64,000 bases of DNA, from assembly GCF_026343295.1 (NCBI RefSeq), contig NZ_JAPELY010000001.1:1364001-1428000 (forward strand), read 5' to 3'. Under the pieces are notes generated by a model. That model ran no database searches and was not told where the DNA came from. It saw nothing but the letters and a program-made list of their open reading frames with translations. Position numbers and translations under genes: made by a program. Positions 38,532 through 45,940 of this stretch are shown here, piece by piece (within the stretch, counting starts at the first letter, position 1; every line of letters begins with the position of its first letter). The DNA comes from Streptomyces sp. NBC_00083 (GTDB lineage: Bacteria; Actinomycetota; Actinomycetes; Streptomycetales; Streptomycetaceae).

Positions 38532-39572
38532 TCAGACCTGGCCGGCCTTTTCGAGCCCGGTGCAGCAGGTGTCGACGATGAGCCGGGTCACGACGTACGG
38601 GTCGACGTTGGCGTTGGGGCGGCGGTCCTCGATGTAGCCCTTCTTGTCCACCTCGACCTGCCACGGGATGCGGACCGAGGCGCCGCGGTCCGAGACGCCG
38701 TACTTGTACTGGTCCCACGGGGCGGTCTCGTGCAGACCGGTGAGGCGGTCGTCGATGCCGGCGCCGTAGTTCTTGACGTGGTCCATCGGCTTGGAGCCCT
38801 CGCCGAGCGCCTCGCACGCGGTGATGATCGCGTCGTAGCCCTCACGCATGGCCCTGGTGGAGAAGTTGGTGTGCGCGCCCGCACCGTTCCAGTCGCCCTT
38901 GACCGGCTTCGGGTCGAGGGTCGCCGACACGTCGAAGTCCTCGGCGGTGCGGTACAGCAGCCAGCGGGCGATCCACAGCTGGTCGGAGACCTCCAGCGGG
39001 CCGACGGGGCCGACCTGGAACTCCCACTGGCCGGGCATGACCTCGGCGTTGATGCCGGAGATGCTCAGACCCGCGGCGAGGCAGTGGTCGAGGTGCTGCT
39101 CGACGATGTCACGGCCGAAGATCTCGTCGGAGCCGACACCGCAGTAGTAACCGCCCTGCGCGGCCGGGAAGCCGTTCACGGGGAAGCCGAGCGGGCGGGC
39201 GCCGTCGAAGAAGGTGTACTCCTGCTCGATGCCGAAGATCGCCTCCTGGTCGGCGAACCGCTCGGCCACGGGGCGCAGCAGCGCACGGGTGTTGGACGCG
39301 TGCGGCGTCCCGTCGATGTCGAAGACCTCGCACAGGACGAGGATGTTCTCGCCGCCGCGGATCGGGTCCTGGCAGGAGAAGACGGGCTTGAGCACCCGGT
39401 CCGACGCGTGGCCCTCGGCCTGGTTGGTGCTGGACCCGTCGAAGCCCCACAGCGGCAGCTCGGCGACGCCGGCCGGCGAACCGGCCATGATCTTCGTCTT
39501 GGAGCGGAGCTTGGCGGTCGGCTCGGTGCCGTCGATCCAGATGTACTCGGCCTTGAACGTCACGAAAGCCAT
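38532..39572 (-). CDS. glnII: Glutamine synthetase type II
   Basis: A 346-residue eukaryote-like glutamine synthetase that joins glutamate and ammonia using ATP. Recognisable blocks are WGFDGSSTNQAEG (catalytic loop), AEVMPGQWEFQVGP, NGAGAHTNFSTRAMR and ENILVLCEVFDIDG. Unlike GlnA it lacks the tyrosine target of GlnE and is expected to be controlled mainly by transcription. A GlnR box lies 79-116 bases upstream of the ATG. The upstream neighbours on the same strand are the vWA/ARPP-2-like pair. Confidence 0.97.
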   Translation of the reverse strand: MAFVTFKAEYIWIDGTEPTAKLRSKTKIMAGSPAGVAELPLWGFDGSSTNQAEGHASDRVLKPVFSCQDPIRGGENILVLCEVFDIDGTPHASNTRALLRPVAERFADQEAIFGIEQEYTFFDGARPLGFPVNGFPAAQGGYYCGVGSDEIFGRDIVEQHLDHCLAAGLSISGINAEVMPGQWEFQVGPVGPLEVSDQLWIARWLLYRTAEDFDVSATLDPKPVKGDWNGAGAHTNFSTRAMREGYDAIITACEALGEGSKPMDHVKNYGAGIDDRLTGLHETAPWDQYKYGVSDRGASVRIPWQVEVDKKGYIEDRRPNANVDPYVVTRLIVDTCCTGLEKAGQV

Positions 39573-39650: not shown

Positions 39651-39688
39651 ATTTCCCGCCCGTTGCCCGTTTGTGAACCCGGTGTTAC
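39651..39688 (-). promoter_or_regulatory. GlnR box of glnII
   Basis: Read on the minus strand, the four five-base blocks GTAAC, TTCAC, GCAAC and GAAAT are separated by exactly six bases each. This matches the GlnR pattern gTnAc-n6-GaAAc repeated twice, with the second block poor. It overlaps the last codons of the preceding ARPP-2-like gene. GlnR activates nitrogen genes under nitrogen limitation in Streptomyces. Confidence 0.8.
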
Positions 39689-40785
39689 CTGGAGGGCTTC
39701 AGGAGGGCGGAAAAGCCCGCGTGGCGCATCCGCCTCGTCAGTTCCTCCGGCGTGGTCCCGAGCGCCTCGGCACATCGTCCGAGATGCCAGTCGTGAGCGG
39801 CGAGACTCTGCAGCAGATGGCCGCGCCGCACCTGGTTCTCGGAGAGGCGGAACGTCTTCAGGTACGCCACCCTGCCCTTGCGGTCGGTGATCGCCTCACC
39901 GATGTGCTGGGCCCGGCCGCTCCGCAGGAACGGCGGCAGGAAGCGCCACAGGTCGAAGCCGCCCATCCGGTACACCCGGCTGAAGGCGTAGGAGGCGTCG
40001 TACAGCTCGGCGGCCAGCACCGAGTCATGGGCCTCGCGCCAGGCCCGCTCCTGGGCGCGGGCCGCCGCCCGCAGGTCGGCGACGCCGCGCACGTGACGGT
40101 CGTCGATGCGGGCGGCGAACTCCTCGACGGGGCGTCCGTACCGCGCGTACTGGTGGATCAGTTCGCCGAACAGGTCCTGGAGCAGCGTGGCGTGCAGCGC
40201 CCGGTAGTCGTCCGGGTGCGGCACCGCGAAGGCGCCGCCCAGCGCGTCCGCCGCGTACACGAGGACACCGCACTGACCGGGGTGGATCTCGAACACCCGC
40301 AGCGCGTCGGCGAGGCCGGGCACCCGGGTCCCGAGGTAGGCGCTCTCGACGCGCGGCGAGAGCCCGGAGCGCACCGCCTCGCGCGACCAGGTGTCCCACA
40401 GCACGGACGGCCCGCCGAAGTGCAGCGCCAGATAGCCCTCCAGCGCCAGGTGAAGCGGCAGGAACCGCAGCCGGTCGCCCGGCCGCCGCTTCGCCATCCG
40501 GTGCAGCGGCACCCGGCTCGGCGGCCCCTCGCCCAGGCTCGTGCCGTACGCGGCGCCGGTGCCCTCGCCCGACCAGTCCGCGACGAAGCCGTGCGGGATG
40601 TAGGAGGTGTAGTGGCCGCCGTCGTTCAGGCGCATGAGCGAGGTCTCGTGCTCCTCGGTGCCGTACGCCTCCCGGTGCAGCCGCAGCCCCGCCACCGGCT
40701 CGGCGCGCAGCAGCGGCACCAGCCGGATGCCGCCCCACACCTGGGCGGGTCCGGCGGTGAGGCCGGTCAGGTCGAGCGAGGTCAT
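39685..40785 (-). CDS. Putative ARPP-2-like protein with C-terminal Fis-type helix-turn-helix
   Basis: A 366-residue protein. Its main part (about 1-300) has blocks such as ETSLMRLNDGGHYTSYIPHGFVADW and LHFGGPSVLWDTWSREAV (quoted in parts). I associate these, with limited certainty, with the ARPP-2 domain described in RNA-repair or conflict operons. The last 55 residues (LSENQVRRGHLLQSLAAHDWHLGRCAEALG) read as a Fis-like helix-turn-helix, so it may bind nucleic acid. Its ATG 40785 overlaps the vWA gene stop as ATGA, with GGAGG upstream. The tight coupling indicates a joint function. Confidence 0.65.
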   Translation of the reverse strand: MTSLDLTGLTAGPAQVWGGIRLVPLLRAEPVAGLRLHREAYGTEEHETSLMRLNDGGHYTSYIPHGFVADWSGEGTGAAYGTSLGEGPPSRVPLHRMAKRRPGDRLRFLPLHLALEGYLALHFGGPSVLWDTWSREAVRSGLSPRVESAYLGTRVPGLADALRVFEIHPGQCGVLVYAADALGGAFAVPHPDDYRALHATLLQDLFGELIHQYARYGRPVEEFAARIDDRHVRGVADLRAAARAQERAWREAHDSVLAAELYDASYAFSRVYRMGGFDLWRFLPPFLRSGRAQHIGEAITDRKGRVAYLKTFRLSENQVRRGHLLQSLAAHDWHLGRCAEALGTTPEELTRRMRHAGFSALLKPSR

Positions 40786-42203
40786 CGGCGGCCCTCCGTG
40801 AAGACGGCCGTACGGCGGTCCAGATACGCGTAGAGCTCGGCCAGGCCCGAACGTCCCTCGGCGAACTCGGCGATCTCCACCAGCGCGGGCAGGTCCTCCG
40901 CGTCCCGGATGCCGGCCGTCGGCACCGAGGGCGCGAGGCGGCGCACGTCGAAGCCGTCCGCGTCGTATACGGGATTGAGGTGCACGGCACGGGTACGCCG
41001 GTCCGGATCGAGCCGGGCGCGCCACACCCGCAGCACCTCGCCAGCCAGGCCCGGCGGCGCGTTGTCCCAGCCGTCGGAGACCACGACGAGGCGGTCCGGA
41101 CCGTCCTCCAGGGCGTCCAGGAGGCAGGAGCCGAGCGGGGTCGCGCCGCGGGGCCGCACGAGCAGCGGGTCCGTGCCGCCCGACGTCCAGCGTCCCCGGT
41201 ACGCCCCGGCGCCGGCCAGCGCCTCCAGGAGGAAGTGGCAGGCCAGCGCGACCGCGAGGGGGCGGCGGCGCTTCTCGCCCGAGCCGGACGAGGAGTAGCT
41301 GTCGTCGAGCACCGCCGAGACGCGGCCCCAGCTCCCCGCGTGCGGCCCGGCCGCCCGCGCCGCCGCGGCCCGCAGCGCGCCCGTCAGCTCGGCCCGGCGC
41401 GCGGAGCGTTCGTCGAGGCCGAGCGAGAGGACGAACAGGGCGAGCCGGGTCAGCCCCATGGAGGCCAGGTCGACGCCGGCCGCCCCCGGCCGTGCCTGGA
41501 CGCGCAGCCGCTCCAGCCGGGTGGCGCGGGGCGCGATCCCCTTCAGGAACACCGTGCGGTCCACCCCGTGCTTCGCCGCGAACCCCTCGGCGACCGTGAA
41601 CGGCAGCTCGTACAGGGCGGCCTGCTCGTAGTGGGCGCGGCGGTGGGCGTCGAGCAGCGGGTGCTCGTACCGCGCCCGGTGCCCCGGCCGGAACAGGAAG
41701 TCCCCCAACTCGCCCTCCGCGGACGGCAGATGGGCATGGCGGACCGCGGCCTTCAGGCCGGGCCGGTACTTCACCGCGTCGAACGCCGGGTCGGGGCGGG
41801 CCGCGAGCCAGTCGCGGAAGATCGCGCGGGTACGCCGGTTGTTGACCTTCGCGGTACGCAGCGCGCGCAGCAGCCGGTACACCCGCTGCGGAGGCAGCAC
41901 GGCGAGCCGTGCCGCGATCAGCCGCCCCTCGACGCGCTTGTCGTCGGCGCTCGCCTCGCCCGCGCTCTCCAGGAGGTGGCGCACGACGAGCGCGGCGTTG
42001 TGGTCGTTGATGTCCAGGGCGAGCACCGCGGCGTACACCCTGCGGTAGTTGATCCGTACGTACGCGTGGAGGAAGGCGAGGGAGAGCCGCTGCTCGTCCG
42101 CCGCCGAGTGGAACTCGCGCTGTCCGGTGGCGGTGACGGCGGCGTTCACGAAGAGGAGCACGTCCTCGGCCGCCACCAGGTCGGCGCGGCTCTCCTGAGC
42201 CAT
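40782..42203 (-). CDS. Ro60/TROVE-like protein with C-terminal vWA domain
   Basis: A 473-residue protein. Residues 1-290 are almost entirely helical (FLHAYVRINYRRVYAAVLAL, VYRLLRALRTAKVNNRRTR), the layout of the HEAT-like ring in Ro60/Rsr RNA-binding proteins. Residues 293-460 are a von Willebrand A domain with an intact metal-ion-dependent adhesion site: D300-x-S302-x-S304, T355 and D377-G (VVSDGWDN). By analogy it could form a ring that binds misfolded or Y-like RNA. The alternative is another vWA adaptor with a helical platform. ATG 42203 follows GGGAG. It is coupled to the ARPP-2-like gene. Confidence 0.65.
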   Translation of the reverse strand: MAQESRADLVAAEDVLLFVNAAVTATGQREFHSAADEQRLSLAFLHAYVRINYRRVYAAVLALDINDHNAALVVRHLLESAGEASADDKRVEGRLIAARLAVLPPQRVYRLLRALRTAKVNNRRTRAIFRDWLAARPDPAFDAVKYRPGLKAAVRHAHLPSAEGELGDFLFRPGHRARYEHPLLDAHRRAHYEQAALYELPFTVAEGFAAKHGVDRTVFLKGIAPRATRLERLRVQARPGAAGVDLASMGLTRLALFVLSLGLDERSARRAELTGALRAAAARAAGPHAGSWGRVSAVLDDSYSSSGSGEKRRRPLAVALACHFLLEALAGAGAYRGRWTSGGTDPLLVRPRGATPLGSCLLDALEDGPDRLVVVSDGWDNAPPGLAGEVLRVWRARLDPDRRTRAVHLNPVYDADGFDVRRLAPSVPTAGIRDAEDLPALVEIAEFAEGRSGLAELYAYLDRRTAVFTEGRR

Positions 42204-42383
42204 GGGGATCTCCCGTGCGTGGATGCGGAAGCCGGCCGGGGAATGGGGGCGCGAGCAGCGAAATGTTTGCTTCAGAGGCAAGTCCCGGAAGTCGCGCCGG
42301 AGTCCCGCGGCCGGCGTCGGAAACGTAGCATTCCGCCCCCCGGGGGCCGCCACCGGAATTCCGCCCGGGGCAGACTGGTCCCC

Positions 42384-43289
42384 ATGAACCACATCGCCAC
42401 AACCCCCCGCATCGGCCTCCTCGGCACCGGTCCCTGGGCCGTCGCCACGCACGCGCCCGCGCTCGCCGCGCATCCCGGTGTCGACTTCGCGGGGGTGTGG
42501 GGGCGGCGGCCCGAGGCTGCCGCCGCCCTCGCCGAGGAGCACGGGGTCGCGGTGTACGAGGACCCCGACGCGCTGTTCGCGGCGTGTGACGCCGTCGCCT
42601 TCGCGCTGCCGCCGGACGTGCAGGCGCCGCTCGCGGTGCGGGCCGCCGCCGCGGGCTGCCATCTGCTCCTGGACAAGCCGGTCGCCACCGATGTGGCCGG
42701 GGCCCGCGCCGTGGCGGACGCGGCCGGGCGGGCCGGGGTCGCCTCCGTCGTGTTCTTCACGCTGCGCTTCGCGCGGGAGACCGCGACCTGGGTCGCCCGA
42801 CAGGCCGCCGCGCAGGGGTGGTTCACCGGGCGGGCGCGGTGGTACGGGGCGCTGTTCACGCCGGGCGCCGAGCGCAGCCCCTACGCCGCCTCGCCCTGGC
42901 GGGGCGAGAAGGGCGCGCTCTGGGACGTCGGCCCGCACGCGCTGGCCGTGCTGGCCGGGGTGTTCGGCGAGATCACACAGGTCACGGCGGCAGGCGGCCC
43001 CGGCGACACCGCGCATCTGATCCTGCGGCACGCCTCGGGTGCCTCCAGCACCGCCGACCTCAGCTTCACCGCGCCGCCGGCCGCCGCGGGCGTCGAGGTG
43101 GAGCTGCTCGGCGAGGCCGGCGCCGACACGATGCCGGACTGGGACGGCGCGCTCGGCGCGTTCGGCGCCGCGATCGACGCGCTCCTCGAAGCGGCCCGCA
43201 CCGGCGTACCGCACCCGTGCGACGCCCGGTTCGGGGCGCGGATCACCGAGCTGCTCGCCGACGCCGAGGCCCAGCTCGGCCGGGCCTGA
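42384..43289 (+). CDS. Gfo/Idh/MocA-family oxidoreductase
   Basis: A 301-residue NAD(P)-dependent oxidoreductase. The N-terminal Rossmann fold starts IGLLGTGPWAVATHAPAL, the signature LLLDKPVATD carries the catalytic lysine of the E-K-P-type motif (here D-K-P), and a C-terminal alpha/beta domain follows (WDVGPHALAVLAGVFG). These enzymes act on sugars or sugar-like alcohols; the substrate is unknown. It is divergent from the vWA gene across a 180-bp gap that contains an AT-richer patch (about 42255-42290), likely promoters. Confidence 0.88.
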   Translation: MNHIATTPRIGLLGTGPWAVATHAPALAAHPGVDFAGVWGRRPEAAAALAEEHGVAVYEDPDALFAACDAVAFALPPDVQAPLAVRAAAAGCHLLLDKPVATDVAGARAVADAAGRAGVASVVFFTLRFARETATWVARQAAAQGWFTGRARWYGALFTPGAERSPYAASPWRGEKGALWDVGPHALAVLAGVFGEITQVTAAGGPGDTAHLILRHASGASSTADLSFTAPPAAAGVEVELLGEAGADTMPDWDGALGAFGAAIDALLEAARTGVPHPCDARFGARITELLADAEAQLGRA

Positions 43290-44579: not shown

Positions 44580-44603
44580 CTGTGCGGGCAACTCGCCAGC
44601 GTC

Positions 44604-44609
44604 TAGGGT
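44604..44609 (+). promoter_or_regulatory. Candidate -10 element of the riboswitch-permease transcript
   Basis: TAGGGT fits the Streptomyces vegetative -10 pattern and lies a few bases before the start of the riboswitch structure. No good -35 is visible 17-18 bases upstream. Confidence 0.5.
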
Positions 44610-44611
44610 GA

Positions 44612-44800
44612 CCTGGCCGTGGTGTTCGGGAAGACCGGTGCGAAACCGGAGCGGCCCTCGCCACTGTGATCGGGTTCCCCCGTCGAGCTTTTCGGGGGAG
44701 CGGTCGTCACCCACGACGCCACTGGCCAGGATCCACCTGGCTGGGAAGGCCGGGCGACCGCACCCACCCGTCAGCCAGGAGACCGGCCGCGGCATCTCAC
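44612..44800 (+). promoter_or_regulatory. Cobalamin (B12) riboswitch
   Basis: The leader of the permease gene contains the conserved landmarks of the adenosylcobalamin riboswitch in order: GGGAAGACCGGTGCGAAACC at 44628-44647, CGCCACTGTGATCGGG around 44660-44675, CCACTGG near 44720, GGCTGGGAAGGCC around 44740-44755, and the B12 box GCCAGGAGACCGGCC at 44774-44788. When cobalamin is sufficient it should shut off expression of the cobalt/nickel transporter. The gene starts about 35 bases downstream. Confidence 0.93.
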
Positions 44801-44833
44801 GAAGTGATCCACGAGGTGCTGGAGCGTGACCGC

Positions 44834-45940
44834 ATGACCCTGTCCACCCGTCCGCCGTCCGAGGCGGGCGCCGCCTCGCCGACCTTCCGCTGGCGCCGCG
44901 AGGACACCGTCCGCACCGGCGCCCTGCTCGCGGTCATAGCCGCCCTGCACGTCGTCGCCTTCGGCATCCTGTTCCTCCTGGTGGCCCCCGCCCACTACGC
45001 CGTCGGCACCAAGACGTACGGCATCGGCCTCGGCATCACCGCGTACACCCTCGGCATGCGGCACGCCTTCGACGCCGACCACATCGCCGCCATCGACAAC
45101 ACCACCCGCAAGCTGATGTCCGACGGCAAGCGGCCGGTCTCCGTGGGCTTCTGGTTCGCGCTCGGCCACTCCAGCGTCGTCGTCGTCATGGCGGCCCTCG
45201 TGGCCGGCGGCGCCCAGCTCGCGGGCACCCTCATGAACGAGGACTCCAGTGCCCACCAGGTGCTCGGCGTCGTCGGAACCACCGCTTCCGGCTCGTTCCT
45301 CTACTTGATCGCCGCGCTCAACCTCGTGGCCCTGTTCGGCATTCTGAAGGTGTTCCGCGCGATGCGGGCGGGCGCGTACGACGAGAAGGAACTCGAAGCG
45401 CACCTGGACTCGCGGGGGTTCATGAACCGTCTCCTGGGCCGCTTCACCAAGTCCATATCGCGGCCCGGCCAGATGTTCCCGCTCGGCTTCCTCTTCGGCC
45501 TCGGCTTCGACACCGCCACCGAGGTCACCCTGATGGTGATGGCCGGCACGGGCGCCGCGGCCGGGCTGCCCTGGTACGCGGTCCTGTGCCTGCCGCTGCT
45601 GTTCGCCGCCGGGATGAGCCTGTTCGACACGCTCGACGGCACCTTCATGAACTTCGCCTATCAGTGGGCGTTCTCCAACCCCGTGCGCAAGGTCTACTAC
45701 AACCTCACCATCACCGGACTCTCGATCGCCGTCGCCTTCTTCATCGGCACCATCGAACTCGTCGGCGTCCTGCACGAGAAGTTCGACCTCACCGACCCGG
45801 TCAGCGGCTGGATCGCCGACCTCGACCTGGACAACGTCGGCTTCGTCATCGTCGGCCTGTTCGTGGTGGTGTGGGCGGCGGCGCTCGCGTACTGGCGGCT
45901 GGGGAAGGTGGAGCAGAAATGGGCGGCCTCGGGGGCATGA
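44834..45940 (+). CDS. Nickel/cobalt permease (NiCoT/HoxN family)
   Basis: A 368-residue integral membrane transporter of the HoxN/NixA family. The family signatures are present: RHAFDADHIAAIDN in the second membrane segment, FWFALGHSSVV, LGFDTATEVTL and FDTLDGTFMNFAY. The cobalamin riboswitch in front of it suggests cobalt supply for vitamin B12 is the main role; nickel is also possible. Start ATG 44834 has GGAG upstream; GTG 44804 is an alternative. The last 95 bases overlap the 3' end of the convergent LysR reading frame. Confidence 0.94.
   Translation: MTLSTRPPSEAGAASPTFRWRREDTVRTGALLAVIAALHVVAFGILFLLVAPAHYAVGTKTYGIGLGITAYTLGMRHAFDADHIAAIDNTTRKLMSDGKRPVSVGFWFALGHSSVVVVMAALVAGGAQLAGTLMNEDSSAHQVLGVVGTTASGSFLYLIAALNLVALFGILKVFRAMRAGAYDEKELEAHLDSRGFMNRLLGRFTKSISRPGQMFPLGFLFGLGFDTATEVTLMVMAGTGAAAGLPWYAVLCLPLLFAAGMSLFDTLDGTFMNFAYQWAFSNPVRKVYYNLTITGLSIAVAFFIGTIELVGVLHEKFDLTDPVSGWIADLDLDNVGFVIVGLFVVVWAAALAYWRLGKVEQKWAASGA

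Follow-up and report, generated by a model that had tools for sequence, protein, structure and literature searches.

Ro60 is an RNA-caretaker protein of animals. Both it and the Y RNAs are autoantigens in humans, and there is still debate over what they do. A Ro protein carries the stem of a Y RNA on its outside and takes single-stranded RNA into its ring; in vertebrate Y RNAs, Ro60 binds at a short helix in which one C is bulged and three nucleotides bulge out on the opposite side (PMC4726728, PMC11277228). Nucleotide 9 of animal Y RNAs has been called critical (PMC11277228, PMC4726728). In bacteria, the functions of Ro60 and Y RNA were, as of 2020, described as studied only in Deinococcus radiodurans, where the Y RNA tethers Rsr to PNPase; in Salmonella, the rsr-yrlBA-rtcBA operon unites rsr, Y RNAs and RtcBA (PMC7790460). 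TROVE proteins of jumbo phages have been counted among the RNA repair genes (PMC7824862). For the ARPP proteins, an action on the ribose moiety has been proposed in the setting of ADP-ribose conflict systems, and the contexts named for them (ADP-ribosylglycohydrolase, restriction endonuclease, HIRAN, WYL and deacetylase) include no Ro60-like protein and no RNA (PMC9503650).

Here we describe a locus that brings these elements together, found in a 64,000-nucleotide (nt) stretch of Streptomyces sp. NBC_00083 (NZ_JAPELY010000001.1, positions 1,364,001 to 1,428,000; the whole stretch is called the window, and positions are counted from its first nucleotide). All three parts lie on the minus strand: P1 (40782..42203; 473 amino acids, ATG start), with a predicted Ro60-like fold and the metal site of a vWA domain; P2 (39685..40785; 366 amino acids, ATG start), an ARPP-2 protein with a Fis-like helix-turn-helix (HTH) near its C-terminus; and a structured, Y-like RNA of 85 nt (42231..42315). 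We consider it likely that the locus specifies a divergent Ro60-like ribonucleoprotein (RNP) that includes a Y-like RNA, has an ARPP protein as partner and probably serves RNA quality control or repair. What is new here is the structured RNA before P1, which no Rfam family matches. An earlier note, made from the sequence alone, had put the two genes forward as a candidate RNA-handling system; function apart, that candidacy is supported by the predicted fold of P1, the ARPP-2 match of P2 and the conserved RNA.

A coupled gene pair and the predicted fold of P1

A scan of 84,980 species genomes yielded 314 relatives of P1, and the results on named loci given below rest on the best 80 of these 314. 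P1 and P2 stood in the same order in all 80 of these actinobacterial loci and on 3/3 Nostoc plasmids (48% and 40% identity). The stop codon of P1 and the start codon of P2 share the sequence ATGA (40782..40785), an overlap already recorded in the earlier note, and this exact 4-nt overlap recurred in 73/80 loci; among the seven exceptions, one gap is a run of N. The coupling of the two genes is far beyond chance.

P2 had been called ARPP-2-like, and the profile search bore this out: residues 4-275 matched the entire ARPP-2 profile (PF22549, positions 1-278 of 278) with an E value of 8.9e-118 and 392.8 bits, against a cut-off of 27. The Nostoc P2 scored 384.8 bits against ARPP-2 and matched ARPP-1 weakly (E 0.0073). 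The Fis-like HTH read at the end of P2 stood in part. Three helices are predicted in this stretch, with a predicted local distance difference test (pLDDT) score of 84-95 across the block save the last residues, and NtrC-type DNA-binding domain matches at the C-terminus (E 0.07-0.085) are consistent with an HTH, but the Fis-type HTH_8 match itself (residues 323-354, E 0.0026) falls under the Pfam cut-off.

By sequence, P1 lies outside the TROVE family, and it had no match at E≤1 in Pfam, NCBIfam, PADLOC or, by sequence, the PDB. Its AlphaFold2 model (pLDDT 81.4, predicted template modelling score 0.80) was computed from an alignment of 46 sequences, which comprise 45 of the 80 loci plus the window and are 69-88% identical. 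When the model was compared with the PDB by Foldseek, nine chains were retrieved at E≤0.001, all of them Ro60/Rsr/TROVE proteins (best E 7e-6); the tenth match was also Ro60 (E 0.0013), and the eleventh was unrelated (E 0.12). VIA-align gave a ranking led by eight Ro60-family rows (Z 14.6-16.8), with the Ro60/TROVE protein of Thermus phage phiLo at the top (9kop, Z 16.8 over 400 residues; 9l5y, Z 16.6). Although P1 and the phiLo protein align over about 400 residues, they are 13% identical, and the phiLo protein matches the canonical Streptomyces TROVE profile whereas P1 does not. Taken alone, these Z values are near the level that helical proteins attain by common arrangement; the fold is assigned as Ro60-like because both aligners single out one family with full-length coverage. 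P1 is therefore predicted to fold like Ro60 over its full length, with a helical ring plus a vWA domain. Among the named matches in a library of viral protein models are a phage TROVE protein and a protein of a Gordonia phage listed as 'Ro-like RNA binding protein'.

The vWA metal site, which the earlier note had taken to be intact, is indeed so: four of its residues, D300, S302, S304 and D377, do not vary among the 46 aligned P1 sequences and the fifth, T355, hardly does, and all five are invariant once the relatives from Nostoc, a phage and Alkaliphilus (described below) are added. They fit the DxSxS...T...D metal-site motif of the vWA domain (PMC11277228). The Ro60/Rsr architecture proposed in the same note fared unevenly, being supported by fold comparison with both aligners and not by sequence profiles; the helical platform is visible in the predicted fold only. 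Two further profile signals, a WCX domain in 4/46 members (best E 0.0061) and an IWS1 match to the P1 profile (E 0.76), were taken as chance.

A conserved structured RNA before P1

The interval upstream of P1, 42204-42383, had been suggested as a place to look for a Y-like RNA. Alignment of the 300 nt upstream of P1 from 81 sequences revealed one very strongly conserved block with little conservation around it, and in the window this block, at 42231-42315, is an RNA that is conserved and covaries, with a bulged C in its closing helix (the 5' end is at 42315, and the element stops 27 nt ahead of P1). The block was found by blastn in 122 sequences, namely the window, 13 first-relative P1 loci, one half-element remnant, one cut locus, 26 genus loci and the 80 named loci, in all 80 of which it precedes P1. 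The sequence of one further locus, L015, begins at P1, and the RNA is present in its genome. The half element (L014) and the element with a cut flank (L016) were dropped before alignment, leaving 120 elements, 105 of them unique; trimming, by a pattern that lost none, left 89 unique sequences. Two further alignments hold 70 of the 105 unique elements (A5) and 48 chosen sources (A10). The length of the RNA is 83-87 nt among the loci.

The 93-nt stretch that holds the window RNA folds with -45.5 kcal/mol (z -4.32), and 0/200 shuffles were as good. The consensus structure of the 89 unique sequences has 26 pairs in four helices, and the partners can pair in 99.0% of cells, as against 34-54% in slid-partner controls. 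Two-sided changes occur at 7/26 pairs, in 25 cells compared with 2.9 in shuffles; for instance, pair 6 changes from C-G to U-A in loci of a second family of the same order, and pair 5 from G-C to A-U in two Saccharopolyspora loci. The two ends of the RNA form the closing helix, whose 5' arm (42303..42315) carries a bulged C9 at 42307 and whose 3' arm (42231..42242) is defined by the consensus structure and covariation. The bulged C9 was present in 89/89 and 48/48 sequences of the two alignments.

Outside the actinobacteria, the evidence for the RNA comes from the three Nostoc plasmids. The covariance model R1, built without any Nostoc sequence and run with filters off, gave exactly one match in each of the three plasmid stretches (E 1.9e-9 to 6e-9); the start codon taken for P1 sets its distance from the gene at 20-31 nt. 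In Nostoc, the outer eight pairs are ACUGUUUG/CGAACAGU, compared with GCCGGCCG/CGGCCGGC in actinobacteria, with pairing retained. In the 48-sequence alignment, which includes Nostoc and four decayed loci and, having been fitted to R1, leans towards the model, the 12-bp closing helix pairs in 576/576 cells, and two-sided changes occur at 9 pairs, in 32 cells versus 5.6.

A -10-like box ends about 6 nt before the RNA in actinobacterial loci (in the window TACGTT, 42322..42327, ending 6 nt before it), which was recognised in the upstream-DNA consensus and whose role as a promoter element is putative. A weaker conserved box lies about 30-45 nt upstream of the RNA, GAAAT-like and then GTGGC in many loci, in which we recognised no common sigma consensus; it may be the site of a regulator, the HTH of P2 being among the candidates. 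A standard sigma-70 scan of the region returned no promoter. The shared -10-like and further boxes imply that transcription probably starts at the 5' end of the RNA.

If P1 were merely a vWA scaffold that models near Ro60 by chance, the upstream block could be a DNA operator or promoter and the module would consist of protein only. The boxes before the block would suit such a case, and vWA-only proteins do reach Z 13.0 and 12.8 over their domain of about 180 residues, above two Ro60-family rows (human Ro60 without RNA and Deinococcus Rsr, Z 12.6 and 12.5). Yet the first ten Foldseek matches all belong to the Ro60 family, 8/10 Ro60-family rows lead the VIA-align list over about 400 residues, and the long-range pairs covary, for which an operator would have no need. 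The length range of 83-87 nt disfavours a coding block, and together with the covariation it led us to reject chance or coding conservation. The window neighbours of the pair, glnII and an open reading frame (ORF) that by eye is oxidoreductase-like, include no MoxR ATPase; the other loci were not scanned for MoxR. We regard the protein-only explanation as very improbable.

The RNA is not a member of a known RNA family by the searches we made: Rfam gave four sub-threshold matches around it (E 2-6.4), and no family above threshold was found in L126, L074, L013 or L086, nor in the window apart from a cobalamin riboswitch. Nor was it found beside canonical Streptomyces TROVE genes, where 12 stretches of about 3.2 kb gave a best E of 0.057 (19.4 bits).

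Across 392 Streptomyces genomes, the RNA was detected in 69, P1 in 71 and both in 67 (Fisher p 6e-68, kinship ignored). The large genome scans were run with strict filters and kept few candidates from each genome, so that weak members may have been missed; under these filters the RNA was single-copy in each of the 69 genomes. Several of the P1 matches are fragments only, and the four P1-only genomes hold fragments of 42-90 residues. Among 61 relatives, the RNA occurred in 13, the identical 13 that carry full-length P1. The two RNA-only genomes, G427 and G575, have P2 scraps beside the RNA; in these and in G474 and G650 (loci L151 to L154, in the order G427, G575, G474, G650), only scraps or nothing remain of P1 and P2, and the RNA still scores 94-104 bits. 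Decay without an intact RNA was seen in G025 (half element), G372, G425 and G630. With four decayed loci that keep the RNA and four others that do not, no conclusion on a separate role for an RNA that outlives its proteins was drawn; the intact copies may reflect recent loss or such a role.

The same data bear on whether the RNA could act in cis only, as a leader in the 5' untranslated region of the P1-P2 mRNA that serves P1 autoregulation or ligand sensing and forms no free particle. Such a leader would account for an RNA that tracks P1 so closely and lies just before it on the same strand, its end being 10-61 nt from the automatically chosen P1 start in 61/66 measured loci (the other five distances are -67, -36, 96, 99 and 237, the negatives arising from a start chosen inside the element), and for a region with no terminator-like site. 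It accounts less well for an element whose two ends pair with each other to close it, that stops 27 nt short of the start codon in the window, that no Rfam leader or riboswitch fits, and that persists intact in G427, G575, G474 and G650, though the decay there may be recent. We judge a purely cis-acting leader unlikely.

Distribution, distant relatives and gene context

The closest named P1 relatives are from Streptomyces, and members were also found in Saccharopolyspora, Kitasatospora and Streptacidiphilus. In a phylum-wide sample, P1 was present in 2/376 genomes, both of the window's genus. An ARPP-2 match was found in 43/281 Streptomyces genomes, and all 35 near-complete ones are on the P1 list. 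Weak ARPP-2-like matches also occur in other actinobacterial families (L017 in G259, L018 in G350 and L019 in G319; E 2e-5 to 2e-4, below the Pfam cut-off). A canonical TROVE protein was detected in 68/121 Streptomyces genomes, the source genome included (G000:C3:1767423-1767605; further canonical TROVE loci are L129-L140). The idea that P1 replaces TROVE was rejected, since at least six genomes, including the source, carry both.

When P1 was searched against 50,697 phage records, one distant relative emerged, in the 462-kb genome of an uncultured phage (LR756500.1; L157 5926-8537 with its partner), with 23% identity over 88% and an E value of 2e-21. The gene 9 nt after it encodes an ARPP-1 protein (PF20208, E 6.3e-25; ARPP-2, E 4.3e-5). 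The phage protein in turn retrieved a relative on plasmid pB6464 of Alkaliphilus, a member of the Bacillota (28% identity, E 1e-31; L159 4971-7543 with its partner), which is likewise followed by ARPP-1 (E 1.2e-22; ARPP-2, 2e-8). Whereas P2 matches the whole ARPP-2 profile, both these partners are strong ARPP-1 and weak ARPP-2 matches. Across the actinobacterial, Nostoc, phage and Alkaliphilus P1 proteins there is no variation in the metal-site residues or in two motifs, NNxR and KYR...H. The linkage of P1, P2 and RNA was thus found by computation in two phyla, and the gene order P1-type, then ARPP, extends to three bacterial phyla and one phage. Rfam detected no known RNA family around the phage genes, and the fold of the 574-nt stretch before the phage gene was no better than 8/100 shuffles; a different small RNA before the phage and Alkaliphilus pairs is possible.

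This distribution could also be that of a conflict system (anti-phage, inter-plasmid or a phage counter-measure) in which a Ro60-like sensor is coupled to an ARPP effector, an explanation compatible with the RNP reading. The presence of the module is patchy, with remnants; its Nostoc copies are plasmid-borne, 2/3 of them typed conjugative; distant P1-ARPP-1 pairs reside in the jumbo phage and on the Alkaliphilus plasmid; an ADP-ribosylglycohydrolase follows P2 in one Kitasatospora locus; and ARPP proteins have been described in conflict systems (PMC9503650). Against this, PADLOC gave no match, the pair sits beside glnII in 55/80 loci like a settled chromosomal gene, and the 46 actinobacterial P1 sequences share 69-88% identity, which we read as slow for a conflict sensor. 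Close relatives of P1 or P2 were not found in viral contigs, and no relative of P2 was found in phage records. A conflict role seems improbable to us on this balance.

The Kitasatospora case is K. indigofera, where the ADP-ribosylglycohydrolase (PF03747, E 2.7e-70) lies at L106 8709-9821 and recalls the ARG link in the name of ARPP. On 2/3 Nostoc plasmids, both typed conjugative, an XisH-XisI pair lies between P1 and P2 and splits the operon (L126 13451-14190 and L128 13472-14211); such pairs may move as a cassette. The P1 frame has a stop in one of the two plasmids that bear it.

In the window, glnII (38532-39572, same strand as P2) starts 112 nt after P2, in keeping with the placement directly upstream of glnII given in the earlier note, and the oxidoreductase-like ORF is the divergent neighbour. 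As glnII is absent beside 25/80 loci, its neighbourhood means little; it is incidental to the P1-P2 module, and a nitrogen link was rejected. An ORF comparison of these 25 loci revealed little in common besides P1 and P2 (≤3 loci), in a test so insensitive that it caught P1 in 18 and P2 in 11. No RtcB gene lies in the region, as had been remarked before, and the genome's single RtcB match lies on another contig (G000:C2:45072-46178). Elsewhere in the window, the cobalamin riboswitch (44603-44805, plus strand, 70.3 bits) overlaps the first part of an ORF (44666-45940) that by its sequence probably encodes a nickel/cobalt transporter.

A Ro60-like ribonucleoprotein as the preferred reading

The locus resembles the described Ro60 systems in three respects. 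P1 shares the ring-plus-vWA fold of Ro60 and Rsr, as predicted over its full length, and their metal-site motif; a small structured RNA is encoded beside it, as with Rsr and its Y RNAs; and this RNA has paired ends, its 12-bp closing helix carrying one bulged C, at position 9, like that of the animal Y RNAs. We call the RNA Y-like on account of this architecture, without assigning it to a Y RNA family. The locus departs from the Rsr/Rtc operons in that the partner of P1 is an ARPP-2/HTH protein instead of RtcB or RtcA, from TROVE in that P1 has no detectable sequence similarity to it and the same genome has a canonical TROVE elsewhere, and from the ARPP contexts named in PMC9503650 in that P2 is paired with a Ro60-like protein and an RNA. 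No account of such an ARPP/Ro60-like/RNA system was found among the literature matches listed; key surveys lie outside these, and an earlier mention is possible.

We propose the following course of events. The 85-nt RNA would be transcribed first, whether it is made as a transcript of its own or is processed from the leader of the P1-P2 mRNA. Because Ro proteins bind the Y RNA stem on their outer surface, P1 should hold the RNA through its C9-bulged closing helix, as Ro60 does on the lower stem of Y RNA, and we infer with high confidence that the two form an RNP. The ring of P1 would then take the ends of damaged or misfolded RNA; for a role in RNA quality control or repair as such, we see the chances as evenly divided. 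P2 would be the partner or effector, its ARPP domain probably directed at a ribose-containing substrate and its HTH maybe binding nucleic acid. The role of P2 as effector is the weakest step of the proposal, and a ribose activity of the ARPP domain is put forward tentatively.

Several observations, in addition to the vWA-only scores and the terminator scan given above, weigh against this reading. The P1 fold is predicted, and the alignment of 46 sequences behind the model is shallow. No TROVE profile match (Pfam) was obtained for P1, for any of the 46 members or for the phage and Alkaliphilus relatives, and the Nostoc P1 has none either; hhalign of P1 against TROVE, with shallow alignments, gave a probability of 3% and an E value of 0.015. 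Four pairwise comparisons of P1-type proteins with 9kop were within the range of shuffles (z 0.5-1.8; 25 to 150/500 shuffles as good). By eye, the alignment of P0001 with 9kop extends over the full length and lines up the KY motif and some of the metal site, which does not amount to a test. On the RNA side, no unpaired base lies opposite C9, so the three-nucleotide bulge of vertebrate Y RNA is absent; ARAGORN called no tRNA-like gene in 42000-42500, unlike what bacterial YrlA would lead one to expect; and the 85-nt RNA model has no match beside the Alkaliphilus gene and a best E of 4.6 beside the phage gene. As for P2, a PDB fold search with its model gave no solved-fold match at E≤0.001, a search that was set aside as uninformative at a model pLDDT of 69.8. 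Q171 is invariant in P2, and C172 is Val in 3/3 Nostoc P2; that these two residues correspond to the published conserved Gln and Cys of ARPP is our assumption.

A wider reading, which we hold to be possible but rather unlikely, is that the Ro60-like RNP is a second, independently evolving Ro60-type RNP of bacteria and phages. Its ring would always go with an ARPP protein, ARPP-2 in actinobacteria and Nostoc and ARPP-1 in the phage and on the Clostridia plasmid, and in the ARPP-2 branch the Y-like RNA would join ring and enzyme and direct a ribose-acting enzyme to damaged RNA ends, rather than serving as a PNPase tether.

A minimal system of three parts, its RNA strongly conserved, in an easily grown Streptomyces would allow a clean genetic test of the roles of a Ro60-type ring and its RNA. 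It would also offer a lead from the RNA side to the ARPP proteins, for which an activity has been proposed (PMC9503650). Finally, a helix with bulged C9 in an RNA for which Rfam shows no link to the Y RNAs would point either to very deep descent or to convergence on one recognition feature.

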